A DNA stretch of 64,000 nucleotides from Serendipita indica DSM 11827 (Eukaryota > Basidiomycota > Agaricomycetes > Sebacinales > Serendipitaceae), in NCBI GenBank assembly GCA_910890315.1, contig CAJVGD010000012.1:1116001-1180000 (forward strand), in the 5' to 3' direction. Position 1 is the stretch's first letter; every line of letters begins with the position of its first letter. The translations under genes were made by a program, and so were the position numbers. The notes under the pieces were generated by a model. The model saw nothing but the letters and a program-made list of their open reading frames with translations, was not told where the DNA came from and made no database searches. Positions 19,458-59,626 of this stretch are shown here, in pieces.

Positions 19458-22400
19458 CTAGTCACGGAGTAAGAATCTATGGATTTGTGGTTCACCAACA
19501 GAGCCATGAGATTGTATAGAGATGATATCTTTGAGAAGTTCCTGTGGAGCTCGAGTGTGAGAGTGGTCTTTCCCAAAGACTGCGACGCGTAGTTCAGTGG
19601 TCTCTCCCAGGAGCTTTGCGGCTTCCTCAAATCGAGAGCGCCTGTAAAGCATAATACATAGGTTGTATGAAGTATCAAGGGCTCGGGGTGCCGTTGACCC
19701 TGGATCTCAAGCTGCAGAGCAAGGGCATCTCGTTGCATTCTTTCAGCATCTTCCAACTGACCACGGTCGTGTAATGTAGCAGCAAGACATTGCGCAGCAG
19801 AGACGGTGTACGGATGCCATCGCCCGAAGATTTTCAGGTGTAGAGCAAGTACTTTTTGTTGCATGCCTTCTGCCTGGTCCATTTGACCACGTGTACAGTG
19901 TATCAGCAAGATTGGATATTGCAAGGACGGTATTTGGATGTTCTCCTCCAAGGATCCCTAGATTTAGAGAGAAAACCTCTCGTTCCATTTCTTCTGCCTC
20001 GACGAGTCGACCACAGAGACGCAACGTATCTGCGAGGTTGCCCATTGCCATGGTGGTGTCCGGATGCCCCCCTCCAAAGATCTCCAGCCGCAGAGCAAGC
20101 ACTTCCCGTCGTATTTTTTCTGCCTCAATCCACTGGGCACGATTGACCAATGTGTTTGCAAGGCTATCCATTGCCGAAACTGTATTTGGATGCCGTCCTC
20201 CAAGGATCTCCAGCCGCAGAGCGAGTACGTTCCGTTGTATCTTTTCTGCCTTAATCCACTGACCACGATGTGAAAAGGTGTATGCAAGGCCGTGCATAGC
20301 ACGGATTGTGTCCGGATGCCGTCCCCAAAGATTTCCAGCCGCGCAGCGAGTACTTTTCGCCTCATCTTTTCTTCCTCGACCCACTGAGAGCGCTTAGTCA
20401 ATATGTATGCAAGAGAGTCAATTGCAGTTATGGTGTCTGGATGGCGCCTTCCAAGGATCTCCATCTGCAGAGTGAGCACCTCTCGTGTCATCCTTTCTGC
20501 TTCAACATACTGACCACGATCAGCCAAGCTATATGCAAGGTTCTTAATTGCCATGAATGTGTCTGGATGTCGCCCTCCAAGGACCTCTAGTCGCAAAGCA
20601 AGCACCTCTCGTCTCATCCTTTCTGCCTCGGGCCACTGACCACGATGCGCCAAGCTACATGCAAGGTTGTTCATTGCCATGGCGGTGGCTGGATGTTGCC
20701 TTCCAAGGACGCCTAATCGTAAAGAAAGCACCTCTCGTCTCATCCTCTCCGCCTCGGCCCACTGGCCACGATCTTCAACGGTGTTTGTGAGGTTATTCAT
20801 TGCAGATATGGTTTCGGGATCCCGCGATCCATGGTTCTCAATCTCCCAAGTGAGTATCTCTCGTCGCATATTCCCAGCGGCGTCAAATTGAGCACAGGAA
20901 TGTAAAGCAGTGGCAAGTCTCCACAGAGCCCATATCGAGTCTCGATGCTTCTCGCCTTTGGCCTGGTGAAGCTGGAGGAGGGCAGACTCTAAGAGCTCTC
21001 GACACGAGCCCCAGTCACCTACCGAGTCGTAGAGCTCGTAAAATGCCAACGCACGAGGTATATGTTCCGATTGCAGAGACCGAGGCGTGTTATTGGCGTG
21101 AGGAAGCAACTGCCAAAGCCGGGCATTGCTACCCACAACTGGCCGGATCGCACCGAGTAGGAGCTGCTCCGTCATTCGCGCATAAAGTTGGTTCTCCTCT
21201 GCGTTGAGACGGTCTTTGATATACACCTGAAGGAGGGGGTGTACGCAGTAGACTAAACCGTTTCTCGAAACGTTGATGAACGACGCGCGAGACGCCGATT
21301 CAAAGATCTCTTAGAGCCCTATTTCATCCCGTGTTGAGCCTGGGATTTCTTGAAGATTTGATATCACGGTCTCGTCGCTCTCCGGAGGAGGACAGCCTTC
21401 CCGGGCAGTGTATGTAGTGAATCCAGTCTTCGTTGAGTCTTCAAAGAGGGAAACCGGAATGTTCGAGTGATGAAGGAATGCACTGAGCTTCAGGAGCTTT
21501 GTGCCTTTGTGTGCAAGCAGTCGAAGGATAGGTCGAACGCGGTATATGTCGACGAGGTGTACTCGCTGCCGATTTCTAGCTTCTTCCGCAGAGGTCGATC
21601 GTGATGCTTACGAAACGTGTCGAGGTACGTATCGAGCCGTCTCGTCTTGCGAATATACGTTCCTGCCTGAGTAATGGCGAGCGCCAACATCCCTAGCTCC
21701 CTGACGATCTCGAGCGACTGGACGTTTGATTGAGGTGCAACGTTGGCGATGACATGAAGGAGCTCCACTGCCTCGCTCTCCTCGAGATTACCAACAGGAA
21801 TTGCGCCATCCGGAGCATATCCACTGCATTCGCTATTCCTTGTCGTAATTAGAATCGTACCGTGGATGGAATTGGGAAGATAGGGGCGAAGGTTTAGATC
21901 CGGCGAGTCGGCATTGTCGAAGAACAACAGCCATCCTGTCTCCTTGCCGTCAAGGTACGCGACCGCCTCCTTCCAGGTCATCTTGCTATATTCTGGGCCT
22001 AAACAGTGAACCGATAGTCCCAAGTCTTTCTCCAGCTGGGTCTGACTTGAGGCGTCGACGAAAATCACACGAGTGAACCTAGCTACCGATGAGAGATATC
22101 CAAATAACCGGAGAGTCCGTACTTGTTTTCGTTGTCACGAATCCACTTTGTAGCGAGCTGAGTTTTACCGGCACCTCCAATCCCGTGTAAGATACACCAG
22201 GGTTGTCGTCGCACAAGACTACTTGGGAAGAGATGCTGTGTGATAAGGGATTGAATCCGTGGCCTATCGATGTAGTTTCTTGACACAGTCAAACTCGGCT
22301 TTGGTAGGACAACCTCATTCGGCGATCGATCTTCTCTATTTGCCAGATCTGGAGACATTTATTGGTTTGAAGCAATGCCAGTGGTCCACGAACCTCGATA

Positions 22401-23540
22401 TGCGTCCTCGGTACACCACTTCTTTGCCACCCCAGCGGTGGCTCCTTCAACGTGCTGCTTGAGGTAGGAAAGAACAGTTGCATAATTTGCGTGACCTGAG
22501 TTGGGAAACTTGACCATCTCACAATGGTCGGCGTCCAGTCCTCTCTCAATTGCCTGACGATCCCCAGCGATGGTGGCAGAGTTATACGGCACAATCTACA
22601 CACTTCAGCCTCGAAGAAGCGAGATCCATCGCAAATACTATTTGTCTTTGCCACCGATGATCGGGGTTGGATACACTTCGTAGAACAGAACGGTTTCGAT
22701 CTCTTTACTAGCCGAAGTGTACAATCTCTGTATGTTGTCCAATGCCGAGGAGTTCTCCTTGAGGTTTCGGACGATAACCTTTGTAGTCTTTAAGTGCACC
22801 GACAATAGCCTGTTCATGGTCTGCAAAAGCTCAACGCCTTTGACGCCAAAGTGAGGCGTCCCGAAGAAGAGAACGGCGTGAGTTGACACCAATATGTCCC
22901 GAAAGTCATTTTTCGAGCCCACAGTCTCGCTATGACAAAGGCCAAGTGCCTTAGTTGACTATTAGAGCAAGTACGTGCGCAATGAGATGTATTACCTGTT
23001 TGAGCACTATGCCTCCCAAGCTATGCGCAATGAAGATGATCGGTCGCTGCGGTTGTTGAGACTACGAGGACTAGGAGCGGACCTTTACTTACTCGTGGAT
23101 GATCACGGCGTTGTCGAGAGAGATTTGAGAAGCTTGTCCGCGTGTTGGTATATTTTCTGCGTCGAGATACACTCTCGACTGCGAGTGTCGGCGTCGTAGC
23201 CATATGCGAGTATTCGTGCGTTGGGTATGTCGGCTTTGAGGAGATCTCGAAGCCACAAGATGCCATTTTCCGCCGTCCATGTCCTCTCTCTGTGACCATC
23301 TAATCCATGGATGGCGATAATACTGACATAATGAGCTCAAGCTCCAGCCCGCGAGTAAGTTGTTCACTCACTCGACGATAGGATCAGTCCCCGATGCGAG
23401 TTCGAGGAAACCAAGATCATCCTTCTTGGATTTTGTTCTCGAGGGTGACGGCTTGCTGAGATCTAAACCAGGAACGGCTGCTTCTTTGTCGGTTTAGAGC
23501 TGCGTAAAATGCCTTTCAACCGTGAGCGAAGACTTGACAT
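19458..23540 (-). pseudogene. NLR copy A: SesB-like/NB-ARC/TPR receptor pseudogene
   Basis: Homologous along its length to the intact copy B. Recognisable parts are the N-terminal peptide MSSLRSRLKGILRSSKP (ATG at 23538-23540), the alpha/beta-hydrolase with AHSLGG (about 23020) and GTPHFG (about 22855), and the NB-ARC with P-loop GIGGAGKTQLATKW (about 22150). The Walker B-like WLLFFDNAD is near 21920, and about ten TPRs span 21000-19460. It is disrupted: a roughly 20-base deletion after the N-terminal peptide shifts the frame, the frame is lost again near 21490, and a TAA replaces a sense codon near 21312. Further frame changes occur near 20335, 19885 and 19670. Its TPRs are more divergent from each other than those of copy B. 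The NB-ARC segment is almost identical to copy B, suggesting recent conversion or duplication. Confidence 0.85.
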
Positions 23541-24049
23541 CGTTCTTGTCCGAGACGGTGGGAAACAAGAGCGGGTTGTTTGCTGAACAGCCTGGGTCAA
23601 TCGGCTGGTTGGTGGCGCGCGAGACTGGCATGGTGAGCTAGCGTCTTTCATGGCACTGTTACAGCTAGTTGATGATAGATTCCTACTTTTCATCGCTTTA
23701 TCCGGGACCCTGATGCTCTTCTTTCTATAAGACTGACAGACCAGATAAGAGTGAATGGTCGGATGTATGTTCTAGACAGTATGTCTTAGGCAGTATGTTT
23801 ATATGTTGAAACAAATCTATCAGATAGATAAACGTGGCGATACCTGGGCAAGTTCATGTAGTGGTAGTCGTCGGTCAGGTAGTGGAGGTCATGGTCGAGC
23901 AATGCCTTCTTACATCAGATAGGAGTCTCGTGAAATCATGATTTAAACTATAAGATGTTCGAGAAAACGAGCCTGCGCTAGATAAATGTTGCCAACCCAA
24001 AGTCAGTCGAAGCGGCAAAGCCGGATAAACTTTGTATTAAATGTGGCTG
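23541..24049. other. Intergenic 5' of NLR copy A
   Basis: This is the presumed promoter side of copy A. Short direct repeats of the type GTATGT(C/T)TTAG occur near 23765-23800. No gene is seen. Confidence 0.4.
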
Positions 24050-24270
24050 AAGCATTACGCAAACATCTACCCATATACAAGTAGAGCGGCCACCGTGGGG
24101 ACTGCGAAGTGAACAATGACGGCTAGTCTGTGGAGATTTGGCGTTTAGCGCGTCGTCCATACCTTGAAATGAAAGATACAACAGATGCACGACGAATAAA
24201 CACAAGTTGTCTGCGGTGACACACGCGGCGGAGGCCGAGGTTGTGTCACCACCGCGTCTGGTCCTCGGAA
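24050..24270 (-). repeat. R2: NLR-flanking repeat
   Basis: Second copy, lying directly 3' of NLR copy B and 5' of copy A. It shares ATGCACGACGAATAAACACA, ACACACGCGGCGGAGGCC and CACCACCGCGTCTGGTCC with R1, in the same orientation. The part matching exon 1 of the multi-BRCT gene is eroded here. Confidence 0.72.
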
Positions 24271-24313
24271 TCATGATCTCATAGTACAAGTGATCGAAGT
24301 ACAAATAATGTAT

Positions 24314-27300
24314 TCACGAAAGTAAGAATGTATGCGTTTGAAGACGAGGTGGCTGCCCAGACACAAGGTCACCGAGAAGTTGCTGGGCACGTCGAGTGTG
24401 GGCGTGGTCAGCACCAAACACCGCGACACGTAGCCCCATGGTCTCCTGTAGAAGCTTGGTCGCTTCTTCGAAATGATTGCACTCGTGTAACATGAGGGAT
24501 AGGTTATAGGAGGCGTCGAGGGTGCGAGGATGCTCTCGGCCCAATATCTCGAGTCGGAGGGCAACTGCCTCTCGTTGCAGCTTCTCGGCACCCTCCAGTA
24601 GACCACGACGGTGTGAAGTAGAAGCGAGGTTGCTTATGGCTGATATGGTGTCAGGATGCCGCCCTCCAAGGATCTCAAGCCGCAGACTGAGCGCCTCATG
24701 TTGAAGGTTTTCCGCTTCTTCAAATTGACCACAATCATGCATGATATTTGCGACATCATTCATTGCCCGGATGGTATACGGATGGCGTTGTCCAAGGATC
24801 TCTCGCCGTAGACCGAGTACCTCTCGTCCCATGTTTTCTGCCTCATCCCACTGGCCACAGATTCGCAAGATGCTCGCAAGCTCGCTCATGGCATTGATGG
24901 TCTTGGGATGTCGTTGTCCAAGGATCTCAGTCCGAAGGTTGAGTACCTCCCGCCCGAGCTTTTCAGCCTCATCCAACCGACTGAGATCACGCAGGATGCG
25001 GGTAAGACTGATCATTGCCGAGAGTGTGTATGGATGCCGTCCTCCAAGGATCTCCCGCCACAGAGCGAGTACCTCTCGTCCAATCTTCTCTGCCTCGACC
25101 CACTGACCGCGATCGGCCAATGTCGATGCGAGGTTACCCATTGCCACAATTGCGTCTGGGTGCCGTCCTCCATGGATCTCCAGCTGCAGAGCGAGTACCT
25201 CTCGTCCAATCTTCTCCGCCTCGACTGACTGACCGCGGTCATTCAAGGTCGATGCAAGGTTACTCATCGCCAAAATTGTGTGTGGATGCCGTTCTCCAAG
25301 GATCTCCAGTTGTAGAGCAAGTACCTCTCGTCCAATCTTCTCCGCCTCGGCCCACTGACCACGGTCAGCCAAGGTCGATGCGAGGTCACTCATTGCCAAA
25401 ATTGTGTGTGGATGTCGTCCTCCAAGGTCATCCCGCCACAGAGCGAGTACCTTTCGTTGAATCTTCTCTGCCTCGGCCCACTGACCGCGGTCAGCCAAGG
25501 TCAATGCGAGGTTACCCATTGCCGAAATTGTGTGTGGATGCCGTTCTCCAAGGATCTCCAGCCGCAGAGCAAGTACCTCTCGTCCAATCTCCTCCGCTTT
25601 GGCCCACTGACCGCGGTCAGCTAAGGTCGATGCGAGGTTACCCATTGCCAAAATTGTGCGTGGATGTCGTCCTCCAAGGATCTCCCGCCACAGAGCGAGT
25701 ACCTCTCGTCGAATCTTCTCCGCCTCGGCCCACTGACCGCGGCCAGCCAATGTCGATGCGAGATTATGCATTGCCAAAATTGTGTCTGGGTGTTGTTCTC
25801 CAAGGATCTCCAGCCGCAGAGCAAGTACCTCTCGTCCAATCTTCTCCGCATCGACCCACTGACCGCGGTCAGCCAAGGTCGATGCGAGGTTACCCATTGC
25901 CGAGACTGTGTCTGGATGCCATCTTCCAAGGATCTCCAGCCGCAGAGCAAGTACCTCTCGTCCAATCTTCTCTGCCTCGGCCCACTGACCGTGGTCACCC
26001 AAGGTCGATGCGAGGTTACCCATTGCCACAATTGTGTCTGGGTGCCGTCCTCCATGGATCTCCAGCTGCAGAGCGAGTACCTTTCGTCGAATCTTCTCCG
26101 CCTCGGCCGACTGACCGCGGTCACCCAAGGTCGATGCGAGGTTACCCATTGCCGAAATTGTGTGTGGATGCCGTTCTCCAAGGATCTCCAGCCGCAGAGC
26201 GAGTACTTCTCGTCGAATCTTCTCCGCCTCGACCCACTTACCACGGTCAGCCAAGGTCGATGCGAGGTTATTCATTGCCGAAATTGTGTCTGGATGTCGT
26301 CCTCCAAGGATCTCCCGCCACAGAGCGAGTACCTCTCGTCCAATCTTCTCCGCCTCGGCCCACTGACCGCGGTCAGCCAAGGTCAATGCGAGATTATTCA
26401 TTGCCAAGATTGTGTCTGGGTGGCGTCCTCCATGGATCTCCAGCCGCAGAGCGAGTACCTCTCGTCCAATCTTCTCCGCCTCGTCTAACCGACCGCACCT
26501 ATTTAGTGCAATGGCAAGCTTGTACATAACCCAGAGGGAATCATCCTGTCTTTCCCTATTGGCCTGCTGAAGCTGGCAAAGGGTAGTCTCCAACAGCTCT
26601 TGACACAATCTCCAGTCACCTAAGGACTCGTAAAGTAGGTGAAATGCCAATGCGTGAGCTGCATGCTCTGATTTCATGAGCCGAGGTATATTATTGGCAT
26701 GGGGAGACAACAGCCAAAGATGCGCATTGCTACCTTCGGCTCGTCGGATGGCTCCAAGTATGAGTTGTCTTGTCATACAACCATAGCGCTGATTCTCCTC
26801 TTCATCAAGACTGTCCTTAATATACACCTGAAGGAGGGGGTGCACGCCGTAGACTAAACCGTCACTCGAAATGTCGATGAATGACGCACGAGATGCCGAT
26901 TCAAGGATCTCATGGAATCCAACCTCGTCCCATATCGAGCCTAGGATCTCTTCAAGGTTTGAGATCAAGGCCTTGTCACTTGCCGGAGGAGGGCAGCTAT
27001 TCAGAACGGTGTATGTAATGAAACCATTCTTTACTGATTGTTCGAATAGAGAGATTGGAATGGCCGAGTGATGAAGAAATGCGCACAGCTTAAGTAGCTC
27101 TTGTGCCTTTGGGGGGAGATATTCGAACGACAGGTCGAACGCGGCGTATGTCGACGAGGTGTACTCGCTGCCGATATCCGGCTTCTTTCGCAGAAGCCGA
27201 TTGTGATGCTTACGAAACGTGTCGAGGTACGTATCGAGCCGTCTCGTCTTGCGAATATACGTTCCTGCCTGAGTAATGGCGAGCGCCAGCATCCCTAGCT

Positions 27301-29162
27301 CCCTGACGATCTCGAGCGACCTGACGTTTGATGGAGGTGTAACGTTGGCGATGACATGAAGGAGCTCCACTGCCTCGCTCTCCTCGAGATTACCAACAGG
27401 AATTGCGCCATCCGGAGCATATCCACTGCATTCGCTATTCCTTGTCGTAATTAGAATCGTACCGTGGATGGAATTGGGAAGATAGGGGCGAAGGTTTAGA
27501 TCCGGCGAGTCGGCATTGTCGAAGAACAACAGCCATCCTGTCTCCTTGCCGTCAAGGTACGCGACCGCCTCCTTCCAGGTCATCTTGCTATATTCTGGGC
27601 CTAAACAGTGAACCGATAGTCCCAAGTCTTTCTCCAACTGGGTCTGACTTGAGGCGTCGACGAAAATCACACGAGTGAACCTAGCTACCGATGAGAGATA
27701 TCCAAATAACCGGAGAGTCCGTACTTGTTTTCGTTGTCACGAATCCACTTTGTAGCGAGCTGAGTTTTACCGGCACCTCCAATCCCGTGTAAGATACACC
27801 GGGGTTGTCGTCGCACAGGACTACTTGGGAGGAGATGCTGTGTGATAAGGGATTGAATCCGTGGCCTATCAATGTAGTTTCTTGGCACAGTCAAACTCGG
27901 CTTTGGTAGGACAACCTCATTCGGCGATAGATCTTCTCTATTTGCTAGATCTGGAGACATTTATTGGTTTGAAGCAATACCAGCAATCCACGAACCTCGA
28001 TATGCGTCCTCGGTACACCACTTCTTTGCCACCCCAGCGGTGGCTCCTTCAACGTGCTGCTTGAGGTAGGAAAGAACAGTTGCATAATTCGCGTGACCTG
28101 AGTTGGGAAATTTGACCATCTCACAATGGTCGGCGTCCAGTCCTTCTTCAATTGCCTGACGATCCCCAGCGATGGTGGCAGAGTTATACGGTACAATCTA
28201 CACACTTCAGCCTCGAATAAGCAAGATCAGTCGCACATACCATTTGTCTTTTGCCACCGATGATCGGGGTTGGATACACTTCGTAGAACAGAACGGTTTC
28301 AATCTCTTTGCTAGCCGACGCGTACAATCTCTGTATATTCTCCAATGCCGAGGAATTCTCCTTGAGGTTTCGGACGATAACCTTTGTAGTCTTCAAGTAC
28401 ACCGACAATAGCCTGTTCATGGTCTGCAAAAGCTCAACGCCTTTGACGCCAAAGTGAGGCGTCCCGAAGAAGAGAACGGCGTGAGTTGACACCAAGATGT
28501 CCCGAAAGTCATTTTTCGAGTCCACAGTCTCGCTATGACAAAGGCCAAGTGCCTTGGTTGACTATCAGAGCAAGTAAGTGCGTAGAGAGATGCATTACCT
28601 GTTTGAGCACTATGCCTCCCAAGCTATGCGCAATGAAGATGATCGGTCGCTGTGGTCGTTGAGACGAGGACGAAAGAGCGATCGTTTACTCACTCGTGGA
28701 TGATCACTGCGTTGTCTCGAGAGGGATTTGAGAAACTTGTCGGCGTTTTGGTATATAGTCCGCGTCGAGACACACTCTTGGCTCCGAGTGTCGGCGTCGT
28801 AGCCATATGCGAGAATTCGTGCGTTGGGTATATCGGCTTTGAGGAGATCTCGAAGCCACAAGATGCCATTTTCCGCCGTCCAAGTCTTCTCTCTGTGACC
28901 ATCTAACCCATGGATGGCGATAATGCTGCCATAGTGAGCTCAAGGTCTGGCGCGTAAGTAAACTGCTCACTCACTCGACGATAGGATCTGTTCCCGATGC
29001 GAGTTCGAGGAAACCAAGATCGTCCTTCTTGGATTTGGTCCTCGACGGTGACGGCTTGCTGAGATCTAAACCAGGAACGGCTGCTTCTTTGTCGGTCACC
29101 GTTTGCGAGGAAGGTTTAGAGCTGCGTATAATGCTTTTCAACCGTGAGCGAAGACCTGACAT
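24314..29162 (-). CDS. NLR copy B: intact SesB-like hydrolase/NB-ARC/TPR receptor
   Basis: STAND-type fungal NOD-like receptor of about 1,540 residues in six exons. ATG at 29160-29162 starts a basic peptide MSGLRSRLKSIIRSSKP. The alpha/beta-hydrolase (SesB-like) shows AIHGLDGHREKTWT (about 28900), the nucleophile elbow AHSLGGIVLKQ in a small exon (about 28600-28650) and FFGTPHFGVKG (about 28450). NB-ARC shows the P-loop GIGGAGKTQLATKW (about 27760), GWLLFFDNAD (about 27530), ILITTRNSE (about 27450), ELGMLALAITQAGTY (about 27280) and YGVHPLLQVYIKD (about 26830). A 45-nt intron joins NENK to FTRVIFVDASS. Seventeen 42-residue TPRs follow, to the stop at 24314. In related fungi such receptors oligomerise on ligand binding and trigger heterokaryon-incompatibility or immunity-like responses; this role is inferred. 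No lesion is seen. Confidence 0.9.
24990..26495 (-). repeat. Array of 12 near-identical 126-bp TPR-coding units in NLR copy B
   Basis: Twelve consecutive 126-bp units encode the 42-residue TPR with consensus core EAEKIGREVLALRLEILG, then HPDTI and AMGNLASTLADRGQWA. Differences concentrate at a few codons (G/R after KI, RLE/WRE/QLE, GGRH/GERH, D/H/R before TI, S/L/V before AM). Five older, more diverged TPRs continue to about 24390. The low divergence indicates continuing homogenisation by unequal crossing-over or conversion. In other fungal NLRs this is a signature of a fast-changing recognition domain. Confidence 0.92.
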
Positions 29163-29689
29163 CGGTCTTGTCCGAGACGGTGGGGAACAAGGGCAGGTTG
29201 TTGCTGAACGGCCGGCGTCAATTCGGCTGTTTGGTGGCGCGCGAGGCTGGCATAGTGAGCTAAGGCCTCTCGTGGCACTATTGCGGCCAAGTGAAGATAG
29301 AAACCAGTTTTTATTGCTTCATCGAGGCCCTCGGTCTGCTTCCTTTGTCTGCCTGACTCACAGACGCAGATGAGAGCGGTCGGAAATCTGTTTAGACTAT
29401 ACTTACACATGTCAAAGATCTACCGAATACCTAACCGTGTCGAAACCTGGACGGGTCCAGGCAGTGTATATTTTTTAGCGAAAGAGGTCAAGTTTGGCCA
29501 CCGTCTCACGTGAGCTCGCGTGAGAGTTTCGTGAACTCATGCTACGAGCAAAAAGGCGTCCGAAAAGAACAACCTGACAGGGGAGGCTACTATGTGTGCC
29601 AAACAAGTGCCACCGACCCAGTTCAGTAAAAGCCGACCAAGTTCTTCAGTGCGGGCTGAGGCATCGAAAAGTAGTGTCTAACTGGTGAA
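29163..29689. other. Intergenic 5' of NLR copy B
   Basis: Presumed promoter side of copy B. The first 200 bases are still related to the region upstream of copy A. No gene is seen. Confidence 0.4.
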
Positions 29690-29840
29690 TATCTGGCAAT
29701 ATAGTGCGTTGCTGATAGCTTGACATGGAAGATACGAGAGATGCACGGTGCATGAGTGCAGGTCATCCACGGCGACGCACGCAGTTGAGGCCAAGGTTTT
29801 GTGGATTCCTGACACCGTCGCGTCTGGTCTATTGTTGGAA
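29690..29840 (-). repeat. R3: NLR-flanking repeat
   Basis: Third copy, at the 3' end of NLR copy C. It keeps GAGAGATGCACG, ACGGCGACGCACGCAGTTGA and GGATTCCTGACACCGTCGCG. It is the most diverged of the four. Confidence 0.65.
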
Positions 29841-30039
29841 TCTAAGCACGGACGAAATGGAAAGTTTACAGTAAACGAAACCATCTTCTCCGGGACCGCC
29901 TGAGCCTCTCCTAATAATTGAAGTTTTCTGGGTTTATCAAAGCAATATTTAGTATACAAGATGGGGAGAGAACGCAATCGACTGCTATCGGACGAGAGTC
30001 TGTATGATACCTGTAGTTTAAGCAGTGGAGGACGAGAGG

Positions 30040-33000
30040 AGGAATGAATGGGCTTGGAGTAAAGAATACCACAAGACTGCTTGGATACAATATCGTTGAG
30101 AAGTTCGAGCGGATGTTGAGTGTGAGCATGGCCCTCACCAAACACCGCACGGCGGAACTCCATGGTATCCTTCAGACGCGTCGTCGCCTCCTCGAGATGC
30201 TTGCGCTCGGACAACATGAGGGATAGGTTATACGAGTCATCAAGGGTTTGAGGATGTTCTGTGCCTAGCACCTCCCATCCCAGATCAACCACCTTTCGTC
30301 GCATCCGTTCTGCATCGTCCAATCGACCACAGCGATGCGACGATGCAGCGAGGTTATTCATTGCTGATATCGTATGGCGATGTGATTCTGTGTAGTTCGC
30401 AACACGTAGATCGAGTACTTCGCGTTGAATGTTTTCTGCTTCTTGGAATTGACCAAGACCATGCAAGACGTCGGCAAGATGATGCCTTGTCCCAATGATG
30501 CACATATGCTCTGTCGATATTTCACGCAGCAGCAGCGTGAGTACCATTTGTTGCATCTCCTTTGCTTGGTATTACTGACCGGCACGAGATCCAGTCACCT
30601 AGCGACTCGTAGAGTCTGTGAAACGCCAGCGTGTAAACCACATGCTCCGATTGCATGGACTGCGGTATGACGTTGGCGTGAGGGAGCAGCTGCCAACGCT
30701 GCGCATTGCTACCTTCGGCTGGTTGGATTGCGCCGAGCAGGAGTTGTCTCGCCATGCGCTGGTATTCATCCTTCACATCACCAAGGCGGTTCTTGATATA
30801 GCCTTGAAGGAAGGGTGTATAGAGTAGAATAATCCATCGCTCGAAAGATTAAGCAATGATGCCTGGGTGCCCGGTGCGACAAGGTTACCGAATGCGAACC
30901 GATCCCACATTGAGCCTAGGATCTGTTCAAGCATGGAGATGAATTTCGCGTCACTCTTTGGAGAAGGAGAGCTCTCCCGGACGGTGCATGTCATGAAGCC
31001 GAATCCAATCGACCGTTCGAAGAGAGTGATCGGAATGACCGAATGATGAAGAAAGTAACAGAGCTTCAGGAACTCCAGTGTCACCACAGGGAGTTCTTTG
31101 AGCGATACTTCGAACGCAGTATATGTAGACGTGGAGTACTCGCTACCGTCACCTGGCACCTTTCCCAGAACCTGTTCATGATGTTTTTGAAGAATGTCCA
31201 GGTACGTATCGAAACGTCGTTCGTTCCGGATGAACACTCCTGCTTGAGTGATTGCGAGTGCTAGCATGCCGAGCTCCCTGACGATCTTGGGAGAATCGAT
31301 TTTGGATGAAGGGATAAAGGTGGCAGTTGTATGAAGCAAAGTCAACGCCTCACTCTCCTCGAAATTACCGACTTTAATTGAGTCTCGTGCGGCGTAACCC
31401 AAGTAGTCAATGTTCCTTGTCGTGAGTAGGACCGACCCATGCGCTGATGTGCCGAGGTACAGTTTGAGATCGATCTTCGTGCCGACTTTGTCGAGGAACA
31501 GCAATCAGCCCCACTCCTTGCTGCCAAGATATGCAACAGCATCCTTCCACATCGCCTTGCCATACTCTGAACCTAAACAGCGAATCGGCAACTCCAAATC
31601 CTTCTCCAATTGGATGTTACTGGAAGCGTCGACGTAAATCACCCGAGTGAATTTAACCAATGATCAGAGATCTTCCAAATCACTAAACACATCATACCTG
31701 CTTTTGTTCTCTTGTATCCATTTGGTAGCGAGCTGAGTTTTGCCTCCACCTGCCATCCCGTATAGGACACAGCGTGACTGGTTTATTGTAGGACCAATTT
31801 GAAGGAGATTATGTGTTATAAGGGATTGAGCTTCTGGTCTGTCGACGTAGTTCCTTGACAATTCTGGAAAAGGTTTCGGCAGGCCAAGCTCCTGCGATGA
31901 TGACTTTGCTCCTTTTGTCAAGTCTGATCTCATTTTAGTAATTAAACATCGTGATAAACCCGACAAACCTCGAAATGCGTCCTCCGCGCGCCATTTCTTT
32001 GTCACAGCCTCGTTCGCTCCTTCGACGTGCAGCTGGAGGTAGGATAGAACTGCTACATAATTCACATCACCCGAATGCTGAAATTTGACCATCTCAAAGT
32101 GATCGGCGTGCAACACCTCTTGAGCTGCCTGACGATCTCCGGCAACTATAGCCGAATAATGCGGCGCAATCTGTCCACGTTAGTACCAAAAGCTGAACTC
32201 TGCCATACTCACTTGTTGGTAGAAATCATCGACGATTTGTGTTGGATACTCTTCGTAAAACTGAACCGCTTCAATCTCCGCGCTTGCTGGAGTATATATG
32301 GATTTTATGTCCTCTAGATCCGATGAGTGTTCTCCGAGAATTCGGAGGATAGTATCTGTTGTCTCCTGGTTGGCTGACAAAGGCTCGTTAGGGTCAAGTG
32401 AAGCTCAACGCCTTTGACGCCGAAATGAGGTGTTCCAAAGAACAAAATCGCATGAGTGGATACCAATATATCCCGCAGCTGATTATTCACGCCCAAAGTC
32501 TTGACATGGCAAAGGACAAGCGCCTAGTTGACATTTAGAATAAGCAAATGAAAACGTGGAATGGCTTACTTGTTTGAGCACGATTCCTCCCACTCTATGC
32601 GCTATGAAAATGATCGGGCGCTGCAAAAATTTGAGATAAAGTCCGACAGAGAGCATTCCTCTACGTACGCGTGGATTGCCACTACGTTGCCGTGAGAAGG
32701 ATTGAACAAACTTTTCCGCATGTCGAGGTATTGTCTGCGACGAGACATGTTCTTTACTGTGAGTATCAGCGTCCCAGCCATACACAAGGATCCGGGCATT
32801 GGGTATGGTAGCCGGCAGAAGGACTTGAAGCCACAAGACGCCATTTTCTGCTGTCCATGTCTTTTCTCTGTGGCCATTCAAGTCATGGATCGCGATAATA
32901 CTGACATAATCAGCTCGAGGACCATTGCCTATACCACAAGGCAACGTATTCGACGACAGGGTCAGTTCAAGAAACGAGAGGGTGAAAACCAAAGCTACCC

Positions 33001-33181
33001 GTCTTCGAGCCGGCTTCCGAAGTTGATGGTCCGTCAGGACCTGATATGGTCGTTGCTTTGTCGGCCGGTCGTGAGTACGACTTGGAGGTACAAAGAAGGC
33101 TCTTGATGCGTGAGCATATACTCGGCATCTTCGTCCAGAATTATGGGGAGGCAAGAGCTGGTTGCTTGCGGAACGGGGCAC
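30040..33181 (-). pseudogene. NLR copy C: SesB-like/NB-ARC/TPR receptor pseudogene with a shortened TPR array
   Basis: Most diverged paralogue. Parts kept are AIHDLNGHREKTWTAENG (about 32880), FFGTPHFGVKG (about 32430), the P-loop GMAGGGKTQLATKW (about 31750), LLTTRNIDYLGYA (about 31420), ELGMLALAITQAGVF (about 31260) and about four TPRs (30400-30050). The hydrolase elbow reads AHRVGG where A and B have AHSLGG, so the nucleophile Ser is lost. A TGA replaces the Trp codon of the Walker B-like segment near 31505. The frame changes near 30795, and most of the TPR array is missing between WISCR (about 30590) and the resumed homology near 30555. The 5' end is uncertain, because the N-terminal peptide region has drifted. 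It is divergent from the NACHT-WD40 gene across R4. Confidence 0.83.
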
Positions 33182-33524
33182 GAAATATCAGTTCATATTA
33201 ATGGGGGAGTGACTGTATGCTGAGCCGATGTCTTTCTTGCCGGTATGATAGGATCCAAATAGTAAGAAATGCGATATGGGCCGTACAATGTGGTGGATTT
33301 GGCCTTCTTTGAAAATCCAATGCCAGAAACGAGCACGTCGGAGCAGTGCTTAGAGTCATACTATGTGCATTGAAACAACGTGCTTAAATCAATAAATCTC
33401 AAATTGAGGATGTGTCTATCCGGGCTGTGGAGTCTGCCAAACCGATCCGCGGACAACAGGCGGATCCGAGACCAAAGAAGGCAGTACGTGAGTAGAGTCT
33501 CTGTGGTCGTGAATGGCAGCTTAC

Positions 33525-33745
33525 TTGGATACCTCCCTCCATATTGATTAAAGGCCGTGCAGAGAGAGAATGATGCAAATATAGTCTGAATGGCGGAGAT
33601 TCGGGGCCCTTGCGAGTCGTTGATAAGTTGAAATACAACATACAAGGGACGCGTGACCAATGTGCGCAAGTCGTCCGCGGAAACACACGCAGTCGAGGTC
33701 AAGACTCTGACACCACCGCGTCCGCACCTCAGACGCAGAACACGG
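33525..33745 (-). repeat. R4: NLR-flanking repeat carrying a relic of the multi-BRCT first exon
   Basis: Fourth copy, 5' of NLR copy C and between it and the NACHT-WD40 gene. It matches R1 at GGATACCTCCCTCC, ACACACGCAGTCGAGG, CTGACACCACCGCGT and CACCTCAGACGCAGAA. In conceptual translation on the minus strand it still shows STTRK...SPPF...EGGIQV, aligning with STTRK...SPF...EGGIQV across the start of the multi-BRCT gene. The exon between those blocks has shrunk here. Confidence 0.72.
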
Positions 33746-33948
33746 AAACACATAGTAAAAGTGCTCAACATCTACAATTATTGCTCAAACACAATCTTTG
33801 ACTCAGTTTACTGGTGGTCAGACCTCGAAATTCTAGTTTATGAAGCCGATTCAGAGTCACTACGCGTCCGAATTGGTCGGAAACCTCAGTTGTGATGACA
33901 GGTCATTACTGTAACTCCACCCACACCTTCCTTCTTGGGCGCGCCTCA
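33746..33948. promoter_or_regulatory. Upstream region of the NACHT-WD40 gene
   Basis: Short region between R4 and the NACHT-WD40 start. No TATA box is obvious. With R4 (33525-33745) it forms the divergent promoter space of NLR copy C and the NACHT gene. Confidence 0.4.
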
Positions 33949-36900
33949 ATGGATGTCGCAAGAGGACTCAAGTCACGACTGAAACAAAAGTTCAGAGCAA
34001 GAGAAGCACAAGATGGATCCGAATCCTCACTCGAGCCACCGGCTACAACCACGCTGCCAGACGCGACCGCGCCCAATGTCGCGCTTCAATCAGACAAGGA
34101 AATTATAAACAAACAAAGCGATGGATCCAGATCACCTGTAGTTGAGGAAAATTCTAAGTGGATAGATCGAGGGATTCTCTTTCTCAATGTTGCGCAAGGC
34201 ATCTCCGAGAGCTCTGATCTCTTGGCTCCTCTCAAGGCAGCTTGCGGTGCTACTATTACACTGCTCGAGTCGATTAATGTACGAAACTTCTCTTGAACTA
34301 CCACCTTTACTTACTCTTACAGTCATCGACCGCCAATCAGGACGCATGGAGTCACCTCGTTACTTCGATCAAACGGCATCAACGCGCCTTAATTCAACAG
34401 CTAGGGCGTCTAGAGATGGATAAGGCGACTCTGGGAAATGCTTCTCAACTGATGCAGCTCATAGAAGACTACCAAAGGCGAGTAGATTCTTCGCGAGGTG
34501 ACGTATCTGACGCCCTATTCAGAGTCCTCGCCCAGATATTAGGAGAAGTCTTCAAGGAGAGCTCTGTCACAGAAGAAGACATTCACGGGACTAAACTTGG
34601 GCTCCGACGCTTGATGACACGTATCGGGACCGTCGAATTGGAAGCAGGAGCAATAGCCTCACTATATGAACAGCTAAAAGAAGCCAATTCACACCTAATG
34701 GTACTGTCGAATTCCGCGTGATAAGCCCGGAAGCTGATCTAGCTAAGACGGCATTGCAACTCTATGTGGCTAGCGAGACCACAGAAACCAAGGAGATGCT
34801 TGGGAATGTCCAAAGTCTCCTGATGAACTCAACCGGTGCGTATCTTTGTTTGATCATGATCTCGCTGAGCGATTATAGTGGTCACTGTGAACCTTCGCCA
34901 CGGTAATCAGCACGACAGATGTTTGGAAGGAACACGAGTAGCGATTCTCAGTCAGCTAGAACAGTGGGGACGTGACCTCGACTCCCAGCACAGAATATTC
35001 TTCCTCGGCGACGTTGCCGGCAAGGGGAAATCGACAGTCGCAAAGGAGATGGTCTGCCGTTGGGAGGAGCAAGGTATGCTTGCGGCCCGCTTCTTCTTCT
35101 CCCGTGGTCAGTCCGGAGGATCGACTGCTGGAGACTTTATTCGACATGTCGCAGCGGATCTTAGCAGAACGTTCAAACCTATTCGCCGCCAAATCCACTC
35201 CGCATTACAAGATCATGCCATCCTTACGAAGCCATTCGCAACGAGGTGGAAAACTCTGATTGAGGAGCCGCTTCGACAGCTCCAAGGCTCGTACACCATC
35301 GTCGTCGACGGACTTGATGAATGTAGTCAGGAAGGGCCCGCAGATAACCGCACGGACACGCGAGAGAATCTGCTGGAAGCGATTCTCGGCACGTTCACCG
35401 CAACCCTCCCAGTGCGGATCCTCATCGCTAGTCGTCGAGAAGAGGACATTGAACTGGCGCTTCGAGATGCACCGTCAGTTTACTCCACGGGTGTTCAGAC
35501 GGCACCTGGGCAGGAGCATCTCAACACGCAGGATCTAGAACGCTTTGTATCATTCCAGTTCACGCATATGAGCTTCGTTGGATTCACGACGCAAGACGTA
35601 CAAGAACTTGTCTCTCGATCGGACGGGCTTTTCATCTTTGCGAGCACAGCGTGTGGTCTCCTGCGCCGTTCGAAAGCTCGAAAAGCTCTTCTCAAGGAGA
35701 TTACAACTTCCGAGGCGTTTAGTGGTCTAGATGGTCTCTACCTCGAGATTCTCAAACGAAGCGCTCCTGACAAGCCCTCCCTGCGGGTGATTATTCATTT
35801 ACTCGGAGTAGTGCTTGCAGCTCGGGAGACGTTGACGTCGCGGATCCTGCTCAACTTTCTCGACGAGGTGGAGGATGTCGAGGGCGTGACGCATGGACTC
35901 GCAAGTGTCCTCTACAGTGGCGGCATGGACGACCCGGTATACATCATTCACCCAACCTTTCGTGAATTCCTTTTCCAAACCAATCGCGCAGCCGAGTTCA
36001 TGGTGGACGTAATGGATGGGCACGGAAGACTCGTCTTGGCCTCCTGCAGAACGCTCTCCAACGAGCTCAAGTTTGACATGTGCGGTGTGACTTCGGGTGC
36101 TTCTTTGACTCCCCTCAACAAGGAGATTATTGATCTCCCCGAACGCGTCGTTCGGTCCACCAGCTCCTCGCTCCGCTACGCGGTGGCGCATATGATCGAG
36201 CACGCTGTGTTTGTCCCAGAGTACGATGGGATCGTCTCAAGATTGTCTTCCATCTTTGATCAGAAACTGCTTGAGTGGTTGGAGGCCGTGTTCTTCTGCT
36301 CAGCCTTCTCGCCGGTGATGGCAAGCTTGATGGAATTACAACGCGTACTAGGTGATATTCACGACAAGCAGGTGAGGGCGCTTTATACTTCATCATTGTC
36401 AACTGAAATTACTTAGGCAGGCACATTGCGTAAATGGTGCTCAGAAACTGTGGAGCTTGTCAAGTCTTATCAACACCTACTCCGAATTTCCTTTATTCAG
36501 ATCCACTTTTCGGTCCTCACCTTCTCTCCTCGGAACGGTCTCATCTTCAGTCACTACTATGAACGCGCTCCCGTCAAACTTCCAATCGCCAAAGGCCAAT
36601 CATTCGCATCCAACGACCGCACCTTGGTCTTGCGTGGCCACAACAGCGTCGTGAACTGCGTTGCGTATTCATCTAAAGCCGCCTTGCTTGCCTCTGGCTC
36701 CAGGGATAAAACCGTAAAGGTCTGGGATGCGCAGACAGGAGCGCTCTTATATACACTGGAGGGACATCAACAAGAAGTCAAGAGCTTAGCTTTCGCTAAC
36801 GACGACAAGCATTTACTTTCCGGGTCGATGGACGGAACGATGATTAAGTGGGATCCACACACAGGTCACTCCGTCGGAAAGGGCATGGATCTTCGCTCTG

Positions 36901-38270
36901 GGTGGATCTGGTCCATAAAGGTTGCAGCAAAACGATGCATGGTCGTGTGCGGCACTAATGAGGGGACCTGTGGAGTGCATCCAGAAAGCGGAGAGATATT
37001 ATGGACTTGCAGTGATGCAGATCAGATGCCAGTGACTGCAGTTGCCCTGTCTTCAGACGAGGAGCTCCTAGTCTCTGCTTCATATGGGAAGACGGTCACT
37101 CTTTGGAAAGTATCATCACCTCCCTCCAGCATTCGCACTCTCACTCTCGACAACAACATCTACGATCTTACTTTTGTGCCCAATACATCAAGAGTCTGTA
37201 TCGCCGCTCAATACCTATGTTTATGGGATATCGAAAGCGGAAAGGAGATATATCGCACCGAAGACGAGCGCCAAAAGCACATTGTGGTATCATCAAATGG
37301 TGAAACAATCCTTGCCGTAGGTTCATCGCTAGTAACTCGCATATGGGATACGAAGAGTGGGAAGCTTTTGAGTGTGCCACTTCACGGTCACAACTCTGCA
37401 ACCAGTTGCCTGGCTTACTCTCCTGACGGTACTACCTACGTCACGGGATCAACAGACCGCACTCTCCGCGTCCATCGCGTCGGTACCGAGCCGACTGACA
37501 GTCACAAAGACTCAGTGCCTGCCGAGATCCGTACGATATCAATCTCTCAGGATGCATCACTCGTAGTCTCCGTCGATCGTTTATGCAGGATGAAGGTTTG
37601 GGACGGGACGACGGGCGAACTCCTTCGCGGACCGTTCCAACTGGAAGTGGAGACAGACGGATACTACACTTCTCAAGTTGCCATACTGCCAGGCGGAGAT
37701 CATGTAGTATATCATTGGCATGACGAAGCCGGTGTTTGGAGTACCATCGATGGTACCAAACTGAAGACTGTAAACTTTGGAGAGGAAGAGATTCTCCAAA
37801 TGTCCATATCTCACGATGGTTGCACTCTAGCACTATGGAAAATGGCTTCTTTCGATATCTGGGATATTAAAGATATCCTCGCTTCGGATCCAACCCTTCT
37901 GGCCACGGTTCAAGGCAAGGAACTAGATCAAGCTGGTTATCAGTCTTCCGACGTCGTTGCATTTCACCCGAGTGACGACTTTCTTGCTATGGATCAAATC
38001 GCATGGGTAATTCGCCCACTTCCAGCCCGGCCTGTCGAGCCAGTGGATCTTGCTCGTGTCATCTCCGAAACCTTTCCAATCCTATATCGGTGGGACCAGG
38101 AGCACAAACTAGATTGGGTTGACTTAGGAAGGCCAGTACGTATGTCCATTGCCATTCCTGGTGAATTCGACATCAACGCTCACCGTGGACTTGGAACAAC
38201 AATCGCCCTTGGAGCATTCGACGGGCGTATGATCATCTTAGACTGTGAGAAGGCAATGAAAGGGGACTAG
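33949..38270 (+). CDS. NACHT-WD40 NOD-like receptor
   Basis: STAND receptor of about 1,400 residues. I prefer the ATG at 33949 (MDVARGLKSRLKQKFRARE); an in-frame ATG at 33895 adds 18 residues. Region 1 (about 34150-34720) is an all-helical domain (DLLAPLKAACGATITLLESI..., HQRALIQQLGRLEMDKATLG...) like the four-helix N-domains of HeLo/MLKL-type executioners; this is an inference from pattern only. NACHT follows: P-loop FLGDVAGKGKSTVAKEM (about 35010), Walker B TIVVDGLDEC (about 35300), RILIASRREEDIE (about 35420) and IIHPTFREFLF (about 35945). After an intron at about 36370-36416 comes a WD40 propeller (GHNSVVNCVAYSSKAALLAS, DKTVKVWDAQTGALLYTLEG and later, degenerate blades). The splice near 34700-34745 is unresolved. 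It lies divergently beside NLR copy C. Confidence 0.87.
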
Positions 38271-38346: not shown

Positions 38347-40387
38347 TTAGGAAGATTGATAACTCCGCTGTGTTTCCATATCCCTCAACCAAGCAGAGAG
38401 ATGCGGGTTTGTGAACTCGATAGTCGAGCTGGGAACCGTCTCATTCCATATATTTGCAAGTGCAGGGTCGCCAAGGTGGAACTTGGTGATCAGACTTCGC
38501 ATTCTCGTGTATGCCAGATTTGAAGGTGGAATAATGGGAGCGAAACTGGCAAGACAACGAGTCTGCGCGGCAATGTACCGAATCATCTGCTCTTTCTCTG
38601 CTCTCCCACGCTTGATATCGTTTACCCAGGTCTCCGGTCTGAGAGAGATGAGATATTCGTAAATCTGACTATGAGGATTCGTGGTTGCCCAGCCACCATT
38701 AGCGTGAAGGATAAAGTCAACACACGTTGTACATTGTCTCCCAGCCTTTTGACTCATATGTCCAAGCTCTTGAACCGCCATCTCCCCCAAGAGTACGTCT
38801 TCTGTTCGCTTGTGTTTCAAGCCATATGCACGTAATGCTGTTGGCAGTGCCGATTGCTTTCTGACCAATGTCTGATCCTCAAGGAAGCGGCACAGGTCTT
38901 GCATGGAGCTGCTCTCCGCACCAACTGAACCCAGCCATATCAAGAAGCGACATAATCCCCGGGCTCTCGGTTCTCGACCCCGGGCGAGAGTGACCGTCTC
39001 GTTTTGGCCCTCGAATATTGAGGTCGACACAAGGTACGAGTATGTGCGCAGTATAGCCGGGTGACAAAAGAGCCGAGGCGCCGATTTCTGAACTTTGATG
39101 AGACCTCGCATATCGCGCAGTGTTTGCTCGAGAACCCAGCGCTCCGTGTGCTTGTCTGCCATCGCCATGAGGGAAACTAGGACGTCAATGTCCAGTTTCC
39201 ATGAGAGATGTATATGCCTCGAGACTTGGTCCTGTTTACCAATGAGCTCATCGAGAGTTTCGTTGTGCTCCGAGGACTTTGGTGGCCGTTGAGGAGAATA
39301 CAAGGAGAATATCCGTCGAATGCTTGAGGCGAAGAAGCGGAAAATCGTTGTCATGGGAGACTGGAATGGAGCATTGAGATAAAATAGCGGCAGAAGCGAG
39401 AGGAGGAAGTAAGCCCCTGCACCTAATAGCAAGCAGGTGATCACCACTGCCGCGAGTGGTCGCTCGTCTGAGTAGATGAGAAATTCGACGATCCCGACTC
39501 CAAAAAGCACCAGCGAGAAATGTACGACAACAGGAACAAATGAGGCAATATGCGCGAAGTAGAATCTCCGGACACCCTCTGCTCTAAAATGACGCGTTCG
39601 AGCGCGAAGTTGAGGGGTTGGTATGCCTTTGAGTCCGCTGATAATACCAGCGGCCCACTGCTTGACCAAAATGGCAAAAAAGGCAGAGATTAAACTTCCG
39701 GCAATACTGGCGAAGACAAGGCAGTTGATAGCCCATGCTCCCGCAGGGACGACGAATGGTTTACGCTCGGGTAGTGAATACGATGAGTTATCCATCTTGT
39801 GGAAGAGCGCGAGTAGGAGGTCATTCGACTTCTCGACTTCGTCTTCCTGGAGCAGTGGGCGCGTAAACTGCAAGAAAGCAGTCGCTGTGGCCGAGAAGAG
39901 ACCCGCCTAATGGGAGTAAGACTTTCGTCTACAAACAGTCTAACACTCACAAATATCAGGAGTACATCCATAGAAGCGTTGACAGATCTCACAAACTCGC
40001 CGTCTTCCTGAGCTGTCTTTTCATTATAAACGTGCCACGAGGTTTTCTGAGAACTGTCTTCCATCTTCTTCTCCAAGTTGGACTCTGTATTTTCTGTCAC
40101 CTGCGGCTCCATATTCACGGGAATCCCTGCCGCGACTCCAGCGTCTAGGCCTAGAAGGGGGAGTTGGTGCCATAACAAATACCTTCACCAGAATATGTCT
40201 ACCTGTAGTATGCTGATAAGGTGGTGGTGCGACTGGTGATGGATTGAGGTAAGGTTGGCCCGACGGCAGAATATACTGTGCAGTAGATAGGATCCCTACC
40301 AAAGTAAGATAATCTTACAACCAAAGGAAATGAAAGATTACCTGTAAGATCTGCCATTTGTACATTATTACTAGAGAAAAACTGCAT
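38347..40387 (-). CDS. DUF6535 multi-pass membrane protein, paralogue 1
   Basis: Agaricomycete DUF6535-type protein of unknown function. The N-terminus is in small exons: MQFFSSNNVQMADLTG (ATG at 40385-40387; or the inner Met at 40357) joins ILSTAQYILPSGQPYLNPSP, which joins LDAGVAAGIPVNMEP. The family hallmark EFVRSVNASMDVLLIF splices to AGLFSATATAFLQF over a short intron. About four membrane segments follow: MDVLLIFAGLFSATATAFL, INCLVFASIAGSLISAFFAI, IASFVPVVVHFSLVLFGVGI and PLAAVVITCLLLGAGAYFLL. A soluble C-terminal half contains ELGHMSQKAG and a Cys pair (CTTCVDF). All splice joins keep frame, so it looks intact. A close paralogue lies at 44879-46751. Position beside the NLR cluster suggests, but does not prove, a shared function. 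Confidence 0.8.
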
Positions 40388-44878: not shown

Positions 44879-46751
44879 TCAGGCTTGGAGAGCTCGCTGT
44901 GCTTCAATCTCCGATATCCACGCACTAAGATGTGGGTTCGTGAATTCAATAGTCGAGCCGGGAACCGTCTCACTCCATATATAGGCAAGCGCTGGATCAC
45001 CGAGGCGGAATTTGATGATCAAATTTCGCATCCGAGCATATGCTAGATTCGAAGGCGCGGTTAGGGGCGCAAATCTGGCGAGACAGCGGGTCTGCGCGGC
45101 AATGTACCCAATGATCCGTTCCCTTTCCGCCCTCCCGCGCTGTATGTCCCACATATCTGGTTGGAGGGTCATGAGATAGTTGTATGTCAGGCTGTGAGGG
45201 TTCGTACTTGTCCGAATACCATTGGTGTGAACAACAAAGTCAACACACGCCGTACACTCTCTTTCGGCATTTTGGTTTATATGTCCAAGCTCTCGGACTG
45301 CCATATCCCCCGATACCACATCCTCTGTGTGTCTGTATTTCAGACCGTATGCGCGTAATGCGATTGGGAGTACAGAATGATCCACAAACGATGGATTATA
45401 TTCAAGGAGTTGACGAAGGTGTTGCATAAGGTTGTTCTCTGCACTAATAGAGCCCAACCATATCAAAAAGTGACACAGCGAACGGGCTCTTGGCTCTCGA
45501 TCGTGAGCAAGTGAAACTGTCCCACCCGGTTGTATCATGGTAGACACAAGGTACAAGTATGTATTCATGAGGACTGGACTTAAGAGGAGCTGAGGCGCAC
45601 GTTTCCGAACTACGATGAGCCTTTGTAAATCGATTAATGCCTGCTCGAGAACCCGGCGCTCCGTACGCTTGTCTGCCATGCCAACAAGTGAGACCAGGAC
45701 GTCAACGTCGAGCGCCCACGAGAGATGTATGTGCCTCGAAACCGGATCTTGCTCACCAACGATCTCGTTGAGTAATAGATCGGTGGATGATAGCAGTCGA
45801 GGAAAACACAGTGAGAATAGCCTTCGAATGCTTGAGCCAAGGGAGCGGAAAATGGCTGTCAAGGGAGACTGAAAAGGGGCTTCGAGATAAACCAGTGGCA
45901 AGAGCGAGAGGAGGAAGTAAGCACCTACGCCTAATAGCGAGCAGGCAATCACCACCGCCGCAAGTGGCCGCTGTTCTGAGTAGATAAGAAATTCAACGAT
46001 TCCGATGCTGAAACATGCTAATGATAAATGAACGATGACGGGGACGAAGGCGGCTATGCGAGCGAACTGGAATCGATATACGCCTTGTATTCTAAATTGA
46101 TGCGTTCGAGCACGAAGTTGAGGTGTTGAGATTCTCGTGAGTCCACGTATAATATCAGCGGCCCATTGCTTCACCAAGATTGCGAAGAAGGCAGAAATCA
46201 GAGTGCCAGCGATACTGGCGAAGACAAGGCAGTTGATAGCCCATGCTCCTGCAGGCACGACGAATGGTTTACGCTCGGGCAGTGTATTGGACGAGTTCTC
46301 CATCTTGTGGAAGAGCGCGAGTAGAAGATCGTTCGACCTCTCGGCCTTGTCTTCCTGTAGAAGTGGCCATGTAAACTGCAGAAAGGCCGAGGCCGTAGCG
46401 GAGAAGAGACCCGCCTGATTGGGGTAAGGCTTTCATGGAATAACAAGTGGCCGAATGCTCACAAATATCAGAAGTCCGTCCATGGAAGTATGGATCGATC
46501 TCACAAACTCGCCCTCTTGCGCAACTTTCTCATTATAAATCTCCCATGAGGTTGCTTGAGGGTCGTATTCGATTTCCTTTCGGCTATTTGACCCTGTATT
46601 TTCCGGCTCAATATCCAACGGACCTTTTGGTGGTTGGCCAACATGAGTTTGCTCAGGCAGCAGGATATGGCGGGGGCCGGATCGGATGCCTACACCCGTT
46701 ATTAGACGCCATAGCTAGAGAGAAGGAGAAATTACCTGTGAGCCTAGTCAT
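44879..46751 (-). CDS. DUF6535 multi-pass membrane protein, paralogue 2
   Basis: Close paralogue of the gene at 38347-40387, in the same orientation and with the same exon plan. A first small exon MTRLTG (ATG at 46749-46751, less certain) joins IRSGPRHILLPEQ; then EFVRSIHTSMDGLLIF splices to AGLFSATASAFLQF. The membrane segments INCLVFASIAGTLISAFFAI, IAAFVPVIVHLSLACFSIGI and PLAAVVIACSLLGVGAYFLL align with paralogue 1. The soluble half keeps ELGHINQNAERECTACVDF and EFTNPHLSAWI at the end. The first 60-80 residues are the most diverged part. The function is unknown. The two copies enclose an aquaporin, an F-box and a nucleotidyltransferase-like gene, so the duplication was not simply adjacent. 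Confidence 0.78.
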
Positions 46752-59560: not shown

Positions 59561-59626
59561 CTCAAGGCGCCAAAGCTGGGCGCGCATAGCATTAATTTTG
59601 CCACTATTGACGCTCAAGTCAAAGAT

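Follow-up and report, generated by a model that had tools for sequence, protein, structure and literature searches.

The 64,000-nucleotide stretch analyzed here from the genome of the root-dwelling fungus Serendipita indica, also known as Piriformospora indica (C12:1116001-1180000, hereafter the window, whose own positions are used below) belongs to an assembly of 24.7 Mb in 55 contigs and carries three tandem receptor gene copies, A, B, and C. All three lie on the minus strand and share the same order of parts: a lipase-fold domain of the SesB-like type, an NB-ARC domain resembling that of CED-4, and a solenoid of tetratricopeptide repeats (TPRs). The most probable reading, held at about 0.6, is that B encodes a cytosolic receptor of the NOD-like receptor (NLR) type, with recognition by TPRs, oligomerization by the NB-ARC domain, a SesB effector, and a specificity driven by recombination. 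It draws on the anatomy of the genes, their open frames, a tract of exchange between A and B, the variability of TPR sites, and selection on the NB-ARC domain, together with folds predicted by a model. If expressed, B would hold a ligand or a self/non-self partner, which might belong to another strain, a microbe, or the plant, in the groove formed by its 17 TPRs; binding would open the NB-ARC domain, and the protein would oligomerize as CED-4/Apaf-1-like NB-ARCs do. The N-terminal SesB lipase/esterase domains, clustered in this way, would then act enzymatically on lipid, and the cell would be arrested or killed. Specificity would change by recombination, the SesB/NB-ARC half being swapped between adjacent copies while each gene's TPR array is homogenized internally, with amino acid differences kept at ligand-facing positions. 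A and C would be the decayed siblings of a birth-and-death process, and a gene with NACHT and WD40 parts, in divergent orientation beside C, would be a separate intact receptor.

Anatomy of B and its broken siblings

B occupies 24314..29162 (minus strand) in seven exons (29162-28975, 28925-28694, 28649-28599, 28552-28241, 28197-27996, 27950-27725, and 27680-24314). Its introns measure 43-49 nt and all run from GT to AG, and its 1525 codons contain no internal stop; one acceptor was set nine bases over by comparison with the public protein P0127 to arrive at this 1525-residue model. The predicted protein comprises a SesB-like alpha/beta-hydrolase region (27996..29040, minus strand; about residues 43-315, with S149, E248, and H285), an NB-ARC domain with winged helix (26750..27950, minus strand; about residues 344-715, with the P-loop GIGGAGKT), and a TPR array built of 17 units, 126 bp each (24395..26536, minus strand), of which units 2-12 (25025-26410) are near-identical. 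Scored against Pfam, the array reaches 560 bits for TPR_10, the hydrolase region lies just above the cut-off for DUF676 (21.3 bits versus 20.3), and the NB-ARC domain falls just below its own (22.8 bits versus 23.5); both the NB-ARC and the alpha/beta-hydrolase domain are clear by predicted fold. All three parts that define the SesB-like/NB-ARC/TPR class—an N-terminal SesB-like hydrolase, an NB-ARC domain, and C-terminal TPRs—are found in B, and a search of PDB sequences with its first 788 residues returned no match at an E value of 0.1. Compared with 16 paralogues, the NB-ARC and winged-helix region of B gives ratios of nonsynonymous to synonymous divergence (dN/dS) of 0.11-0.28 in 15 cases, one being saturated; the estimates are rough, with most dS values above 1. 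The NB-ARC domain is under purifying selection. A 505-residue open reading frame antisense to the array (25012-26529, plus strand) was rejected as a gene and is regarded as a by-product, because the 126-bp unit has no stop in that frame.

The public record of this protein is incomplete. P0127, a 2011 record from S. indica DSM 11827 named 'related to tetratricopeptide repeat domain protein', is identical to B over 699 residues and ends at 720, short of the TPRs, so that the whole sensor is missing from the record. Past residue 699 its tail corresponds to this DNA in a different reading frame. Such a shift would follow from a single-base difference and may reflect either an error in the older record or a second allele. 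No full-length B protein occurs among the best 120 matches of each of two protein searches, and the present gene model supplies the sensor absent from the public protein. Copy A is likewise listed only as a short model of 504 residues (P0129). Other S. indica proteins (P0001, P0003, P0005, P0006, P0008, and P0012) match receptor loci at 98.6-100% over long stretches, but these near-identities attest to the species and are no measure of strain variation, because several of the proteins derive from this same assembly.

The locus is mostly decayed: B and the NACHT-WD40 gene are open, whereas A and C are broken. By self-BLAST, A (19686-23777) and B (25284-29397) are 82% identical over 4.1 kb, and C matches either of them at 68-69% over 2.4 kb. 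Copy A (19458..23540, minus strand; coding part about 19.5-23.54 kb) is a pseudogene. Its automatic alignment to B shows five indels that break the frame (the fifth lies right at the alignment edge) and, ahead of the TPRs, one in-register stop; the TPR region of A is spread over several frames. Copy C (30098..32950, minus strand) is an older pseudogene; in the corresponding alignment its frame is broken by three indels, of which the third again lies at the edge, and it has two stops. Its would-be catalytic serine is replaced by arginine (AHRVGG at the place of AHSLGG in B), and its TPR array is mostly lost, two recognizable units being left. Upstream of C, at 33575..33807 (minus strand), lies a solo copy of the 3′-flank sequence of the B subfamily, which suggests that a fourth copy, now lost, probably once stood there. 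A genome search finds this flank at four places (3′ of A, B, and L003, and the solo site), to which self-BLAST adds the 3′ side of C. With its inverted ends the repeat had been considered as a mobile element; this was rejected in favor of flank homology within the subfamily, since its places are the 3′ sides of A, B, C, and L003 plus the solo site. The initial annotation, which had proposed three same-strand paralogues with matching domain order, one intact and two decaying, beside a working receptor of a different class, is borne out by self-BLAST, by the indels and stops in A and C, and by the frames of B and the NACHT gene, open through all exons. For A, however, decay describes the broken frame and gives an incomplete picture of a copy whose SesB/NB-ARC half appears to have been exchanged with B.

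The DNA of B has at least 50 matches in the genome, and loci were fetched for 30 of these, including A and B. When 48 of 50 matches (two short ones excluded) are merged together with C, 38 loci result, A, B, and C becoming one; 17 of the 38 are located on contig C12, which makes up 5.1% of the genome, and the loci on this contig are not independent of one another, having arisen by tandem duplication. Among 31 copies examined (A, B, C, and L003-L030), the exon running from NB-ARC to TPRs is open in 16 by our criterion, with introns or edges possibly mimicking breakage in some, in line with the birth-and-death evolution suggested earlier. The B subfamily forms a further tandem group (L003, L013, and L014; C12:1228810-1246344, plus strand) about 84-105 kb from B, in which the main exon is open in L013, not in L003 or L014. 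On contig C24, L007, L011, and L022 are 95-98% identical to the C12 loci L009 and L024, flanks included for L022/L024. This likeness may stem either from a recent segmental duplication or from the sequence of a second nucleus; the sequenced S. indica strain has been described as most likely a heterokaryon, with expanded NB-ARC and TPR_4 families (Zuccaro et al. 2011, PMC3192844).

Variable TPR sites and the A/B exchange tract

Units 2-12 of B share a mean DNA identity of 0.876 among themselves, compared with averages of 0.59-0.74 to the units of any of the 30 other copies. Being alike within the gene and unlike those of other copies, the units point to homogenization inside the gene. Pairwise, they are 0.80-0.94 identical in DNA and 0.64-0.88 in protein, values measured otherwise than the criterion of 85% over at least 100 amino acids used by Dyrka et al. 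(2014, PMC4986451). Units identical across loci belong to recently duplicated genes or to overlapping stretches (L003/L014). Repeat number, compared between 27 proteins of 2011 and the present assembly, was not used as evidence, because the 2011 models end early or are repeat-poor and repeats may have collapsed.

In our alignment, the numbering of the TPR unit coincides with the canonical one, for which positions 2, 5, 9, 12, 13, 33, and 34 have been reported as the most variable, on the concave face, and positions 2, 5, 6, 9, 12, and 13 as ligand contacts (Magliery and Regan 2005, PMC1261162). Variability was assessed in 22 of the 31 copies, each with at least five units at 85% or more; A, C, L005, L010, L013, L014, L022, L023, and L024 have no such cluster and were left out. 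The mean proportion of nonsynonymous differences (pN) is 0.295 at positions 2, 5, 9, 12, and 13 versus 0.045 at the other 37 positions, a contrast equaled by none of 100,000 random five-site sets (5 of 100,000 when 33 and 34 are added). When four sites picked from these data (24, 31, 37, and 41) are joined to the five taken from the literature, the resulting nine show a pN of 0.236 against a proportion of synonymous differences (pS) of 0.159, a ratio of 1.49 (gene bootstrap 1.22-1.84), whereas the remaining sites show 0.031 and 0.104. The nine-site set is unchanged if B is left out of its choice, and it then holds 59% of the replacement and 11% of the synonymous differences of B. Because many copies are recent duplicates, they were also collapsed by hand into 12 similarity groups, which give a pN of 0.298 at the five sites versus 0.044 elsewhere, all 12 in the same direction. 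In these 22 of the 31 copies, B among them, the variable residues lie on the concave ligand face.

A different history is recorded in the other half of the gene. On the B side, a tract at 27203..29164 (minus strand) shares about 95% identity with the stretch of A at about 21.6-23.54 kb; near 27131-27203 identity steps down to about 73%. In blocks of 100 bases, identity to A is 85-100% between about 29.2 and 27.3 kb of B, drops to 83% in the block that follows, and stays at 64-84% as far as about 26.0 kb, and a change-point fit places the step at 27131, with 94.8% before and 72.5% after. Identity is therefore high through the SesB and NB-ARC parts and low from the winged helix onward, a step that indicates that the copies are recombination mosaics. 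The longest A/B run of identical polymorphic sites (136 sites, 27632-27341) was matched in none of 5000 permutations. Compared with B, L003, the closest other paralogue at a distance of 91 kb, starts at 71-82% identity in the 5′ end, rises to 85-96% over most of SesB, falls to 72-75% in the NB core, and recovers to 76-86% past it. Its runs were matched in 0 (with B) and 9 (with A) of 5000 permutations, as compared with 1699, 360, and 1285 for the control pairs L013/L014, L004/L005, and B/L004. A statistic for the best high-identity fragment gave 0 of 1000 for A/B, A/L003, and B/L003 and also for the control L013/L014 (other controls: B/L004, 11; L004/L005, 713). Since that control behaves like the test pairs, the fragment statistic is in part a product of conservation that varies along the gene, and the case for mosaics rests on the runs and the step. 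A surviving donor for the 3′ half of A was considered and rejected: outside A, the best hit along this half stands at 70%, and short pieces attain up to 84%. With no match above 70% over the length of this half, the tract looks like an exchange of the SesB/NB-ARC half, in either direction, rather than a fusion with a donor still present. Between the TPR halves of A and B no recent exchange was found, the best unit match being 0.78.

These two patterns have tentatively been combined into a wider proposal of modular diversification. Exchange among paralogues, broken ones included, would keep the lipase/NB-ARC half uniform up to the winged-helix boundary, while the TPR arrays would be privately homogenized and varied only at ligand contacts, such that dozens of loci, concentrated on a single contig, would share an engine and own private sensors. 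Less probable is a purely neutral turnover, in which constraint is relaxed on the exposed residues of freshly amplified repeats in a decaying family without a recognition role. This would agree with the 15 of 31 copies that lack a continuous NB-ARC-to-TPR exon, and several further observations weigh against recognition by B. The ratio over the whole array of B is 0.69 (bootstrap 0.36-1.36), that is, not above 1, and the five sites have an elevated pS as well (0.206 versus 0.117 overall), so that mutation or older divergence of these codons may account for some of the excess. Positions 33 and 34 vary in TPRs in general but not here. An aspartate occupies the nucleophile column of S149 in 11 of 71 SesB relatives (alignment A1), and part of the SesB family may thus be non-catalytic. 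Finally, the departure of P0127 from the frame of B may indicate a broken B allele in that strain. Neutral turnover is opposed, however, by the excess of pN over pS at the nine most variable sites, even though four of these were chosen from the same data, by the reverse relation elsewhere, by the agreement of all 12 similarity groups at the five literature sites, and by purifying selection on the NB-ARC domain.

In some immune systems, V pseudogenes act as silent donors in gene conversion. A, and formerly C, might similarly have served as stores of segments copied into B to diversify it, an improbable role for which one could cite the A/B tract across the SesB/NB-ARC half, which encloses a younger and nearly identical segment, and the mosaic of L003 with its other boundaries. 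The exchange could have run either way, however, the 3′ half of A is without a close match elsewhere in the genome, and the TPR half, the very part a donor should diversify, is free of recent exchange between A and B.

The divergent NACHT-WD40 gene

On the plus strand, an intact gene of five exons (33949..38270; exons 33949-34278, 34323-34700, 34748-34835, 34879-36371, and 36417-38270) encodes a predicted protein of 1380 residues with Pfam scores of 72.7 bits for NPHP3_N, 30.5 for NACHT, and 124 for WD40, in the order NACHT then WD40. Its N-terminal part has no Pfam family above cut-off, and Tandem Repeats Finder reports nothing between 33949 and 38270, where a homogeneous WD40 array of the hnwd type would have shown up. 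Genome-wide, at least 150 NPHP3_N matches exceed the cut-off (150 scored of 258 candidates); one of these 150 lies on C12, and the window's own gene is absent from them. One partial relative (82%) occurs at C12:1088775. The gene is best read as an independent receptor. It is followed at its 3′ end by one member of a paralogous gene pair (38347-39906 and 44879-46432, both on the minus strand, 73% alike in DNA), the nearer of which is a DUF6535 gene. Further downstream, at 57002-62215 (plus strand), a gag-pol type retroelement consists of two abutting frames, with Retrotrans_gag followed by zinc knuckle, aspartyl protease, reverse transcriptase, and RNase H.

That B and the NACHT-WD40 gene form a co-regulated sensor/helper pair is the least probable of the alternatives. 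The divergent placement of the two, with no gene in between other than pseudogene C, the intactness of both, and their similar basic N-terminal peptides (MSGLRSRLK in B, 29136-29156, minus strand; MDVARGLKSRLK in the NACHT gene, 33964-33984, plus strand) speak for it, and the GLRSRLK/GLKSRLK DNA pattern occurs in the window at just these two starts, while none of 100 shuffles had two. MSGLRSRLK is found at three SesB/TPR loci. Genome-wide, however, the DNA pattern is not enriched (13 matches versus 16 in a reversed control), and a whole decayed gene separates the two receptors. As C12 is the contig with the most TPR receptors and holds 1 of the 150 NPHP3_N matches, the adjacency may be due to chance. 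The initial annotation had treated both genes as one functional locus, in support of which nothing was found. Its claim of a recognition role fits the coincidence of variable TPR sites with ligand-contact positions, and an active recognition locus is a plausible description of the region.

Relation to known receptors

The architecture of B is one already known. SesB-like/NB-ARC/TPR receptors with repeat-number polymorphism and variable sites on the concave face have been described in Podospora, where Pa_2_10340 exemplifies the TPR type, in a survey that also covered P. indica (Dyrka et al. 2014, PMC4986451). B is a new, and now complete, member of this group, sharing with the Podospora receptors the three-part architecture, repeats alike within the gene, and concave-face variable sites. 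In the ascomycete, as described there, variability is seen between isolates and includes repeat number, whereas here it is found across 22 copies of one genome and accompanied by an inter-paralogue SesB/NB-ARC exchange tract. The NB-ARCs of CED-4, Apaf-1, and the plant resistosome are combined with CARD, CC, or TIR and with WD40 or LRR parts; B instead has a lipase-fold N-terminus and a TPR C-terminus. The divergent gene resembles the NACHT-WD receptors of S. indica, of which 99 open reading frames have been reported (Zuccaro et al. 2011, PMC3192844), in having NACHT and WD40 parts, and differs from them in its N-terminus without a Pfam match and in its lack of a homogeneous WD array.

Literature searches brought up no paper dealing with this locus or the A/B mosaic, which is weak evidence of absence, as most subscription journals lay outside the search. 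The additions made here are the A/B mosaic, ligand-facing TPR variability in 22 of 31 copies, and main exons open in 16 of 31. The variable TPR sites give a concrete list of predicted contact residues, and if the residue-level signature of Podospora recurs, as here, in 12 similarity groups of receptor genes from a basidiomycete mutualist, it would count as a rule for fungi in general. The mosaic of A and B suggests that recombination can act differently on the effector half of an NLR than on its sensor half, such that neighboring receptors may share one engine while the recognition part changes.

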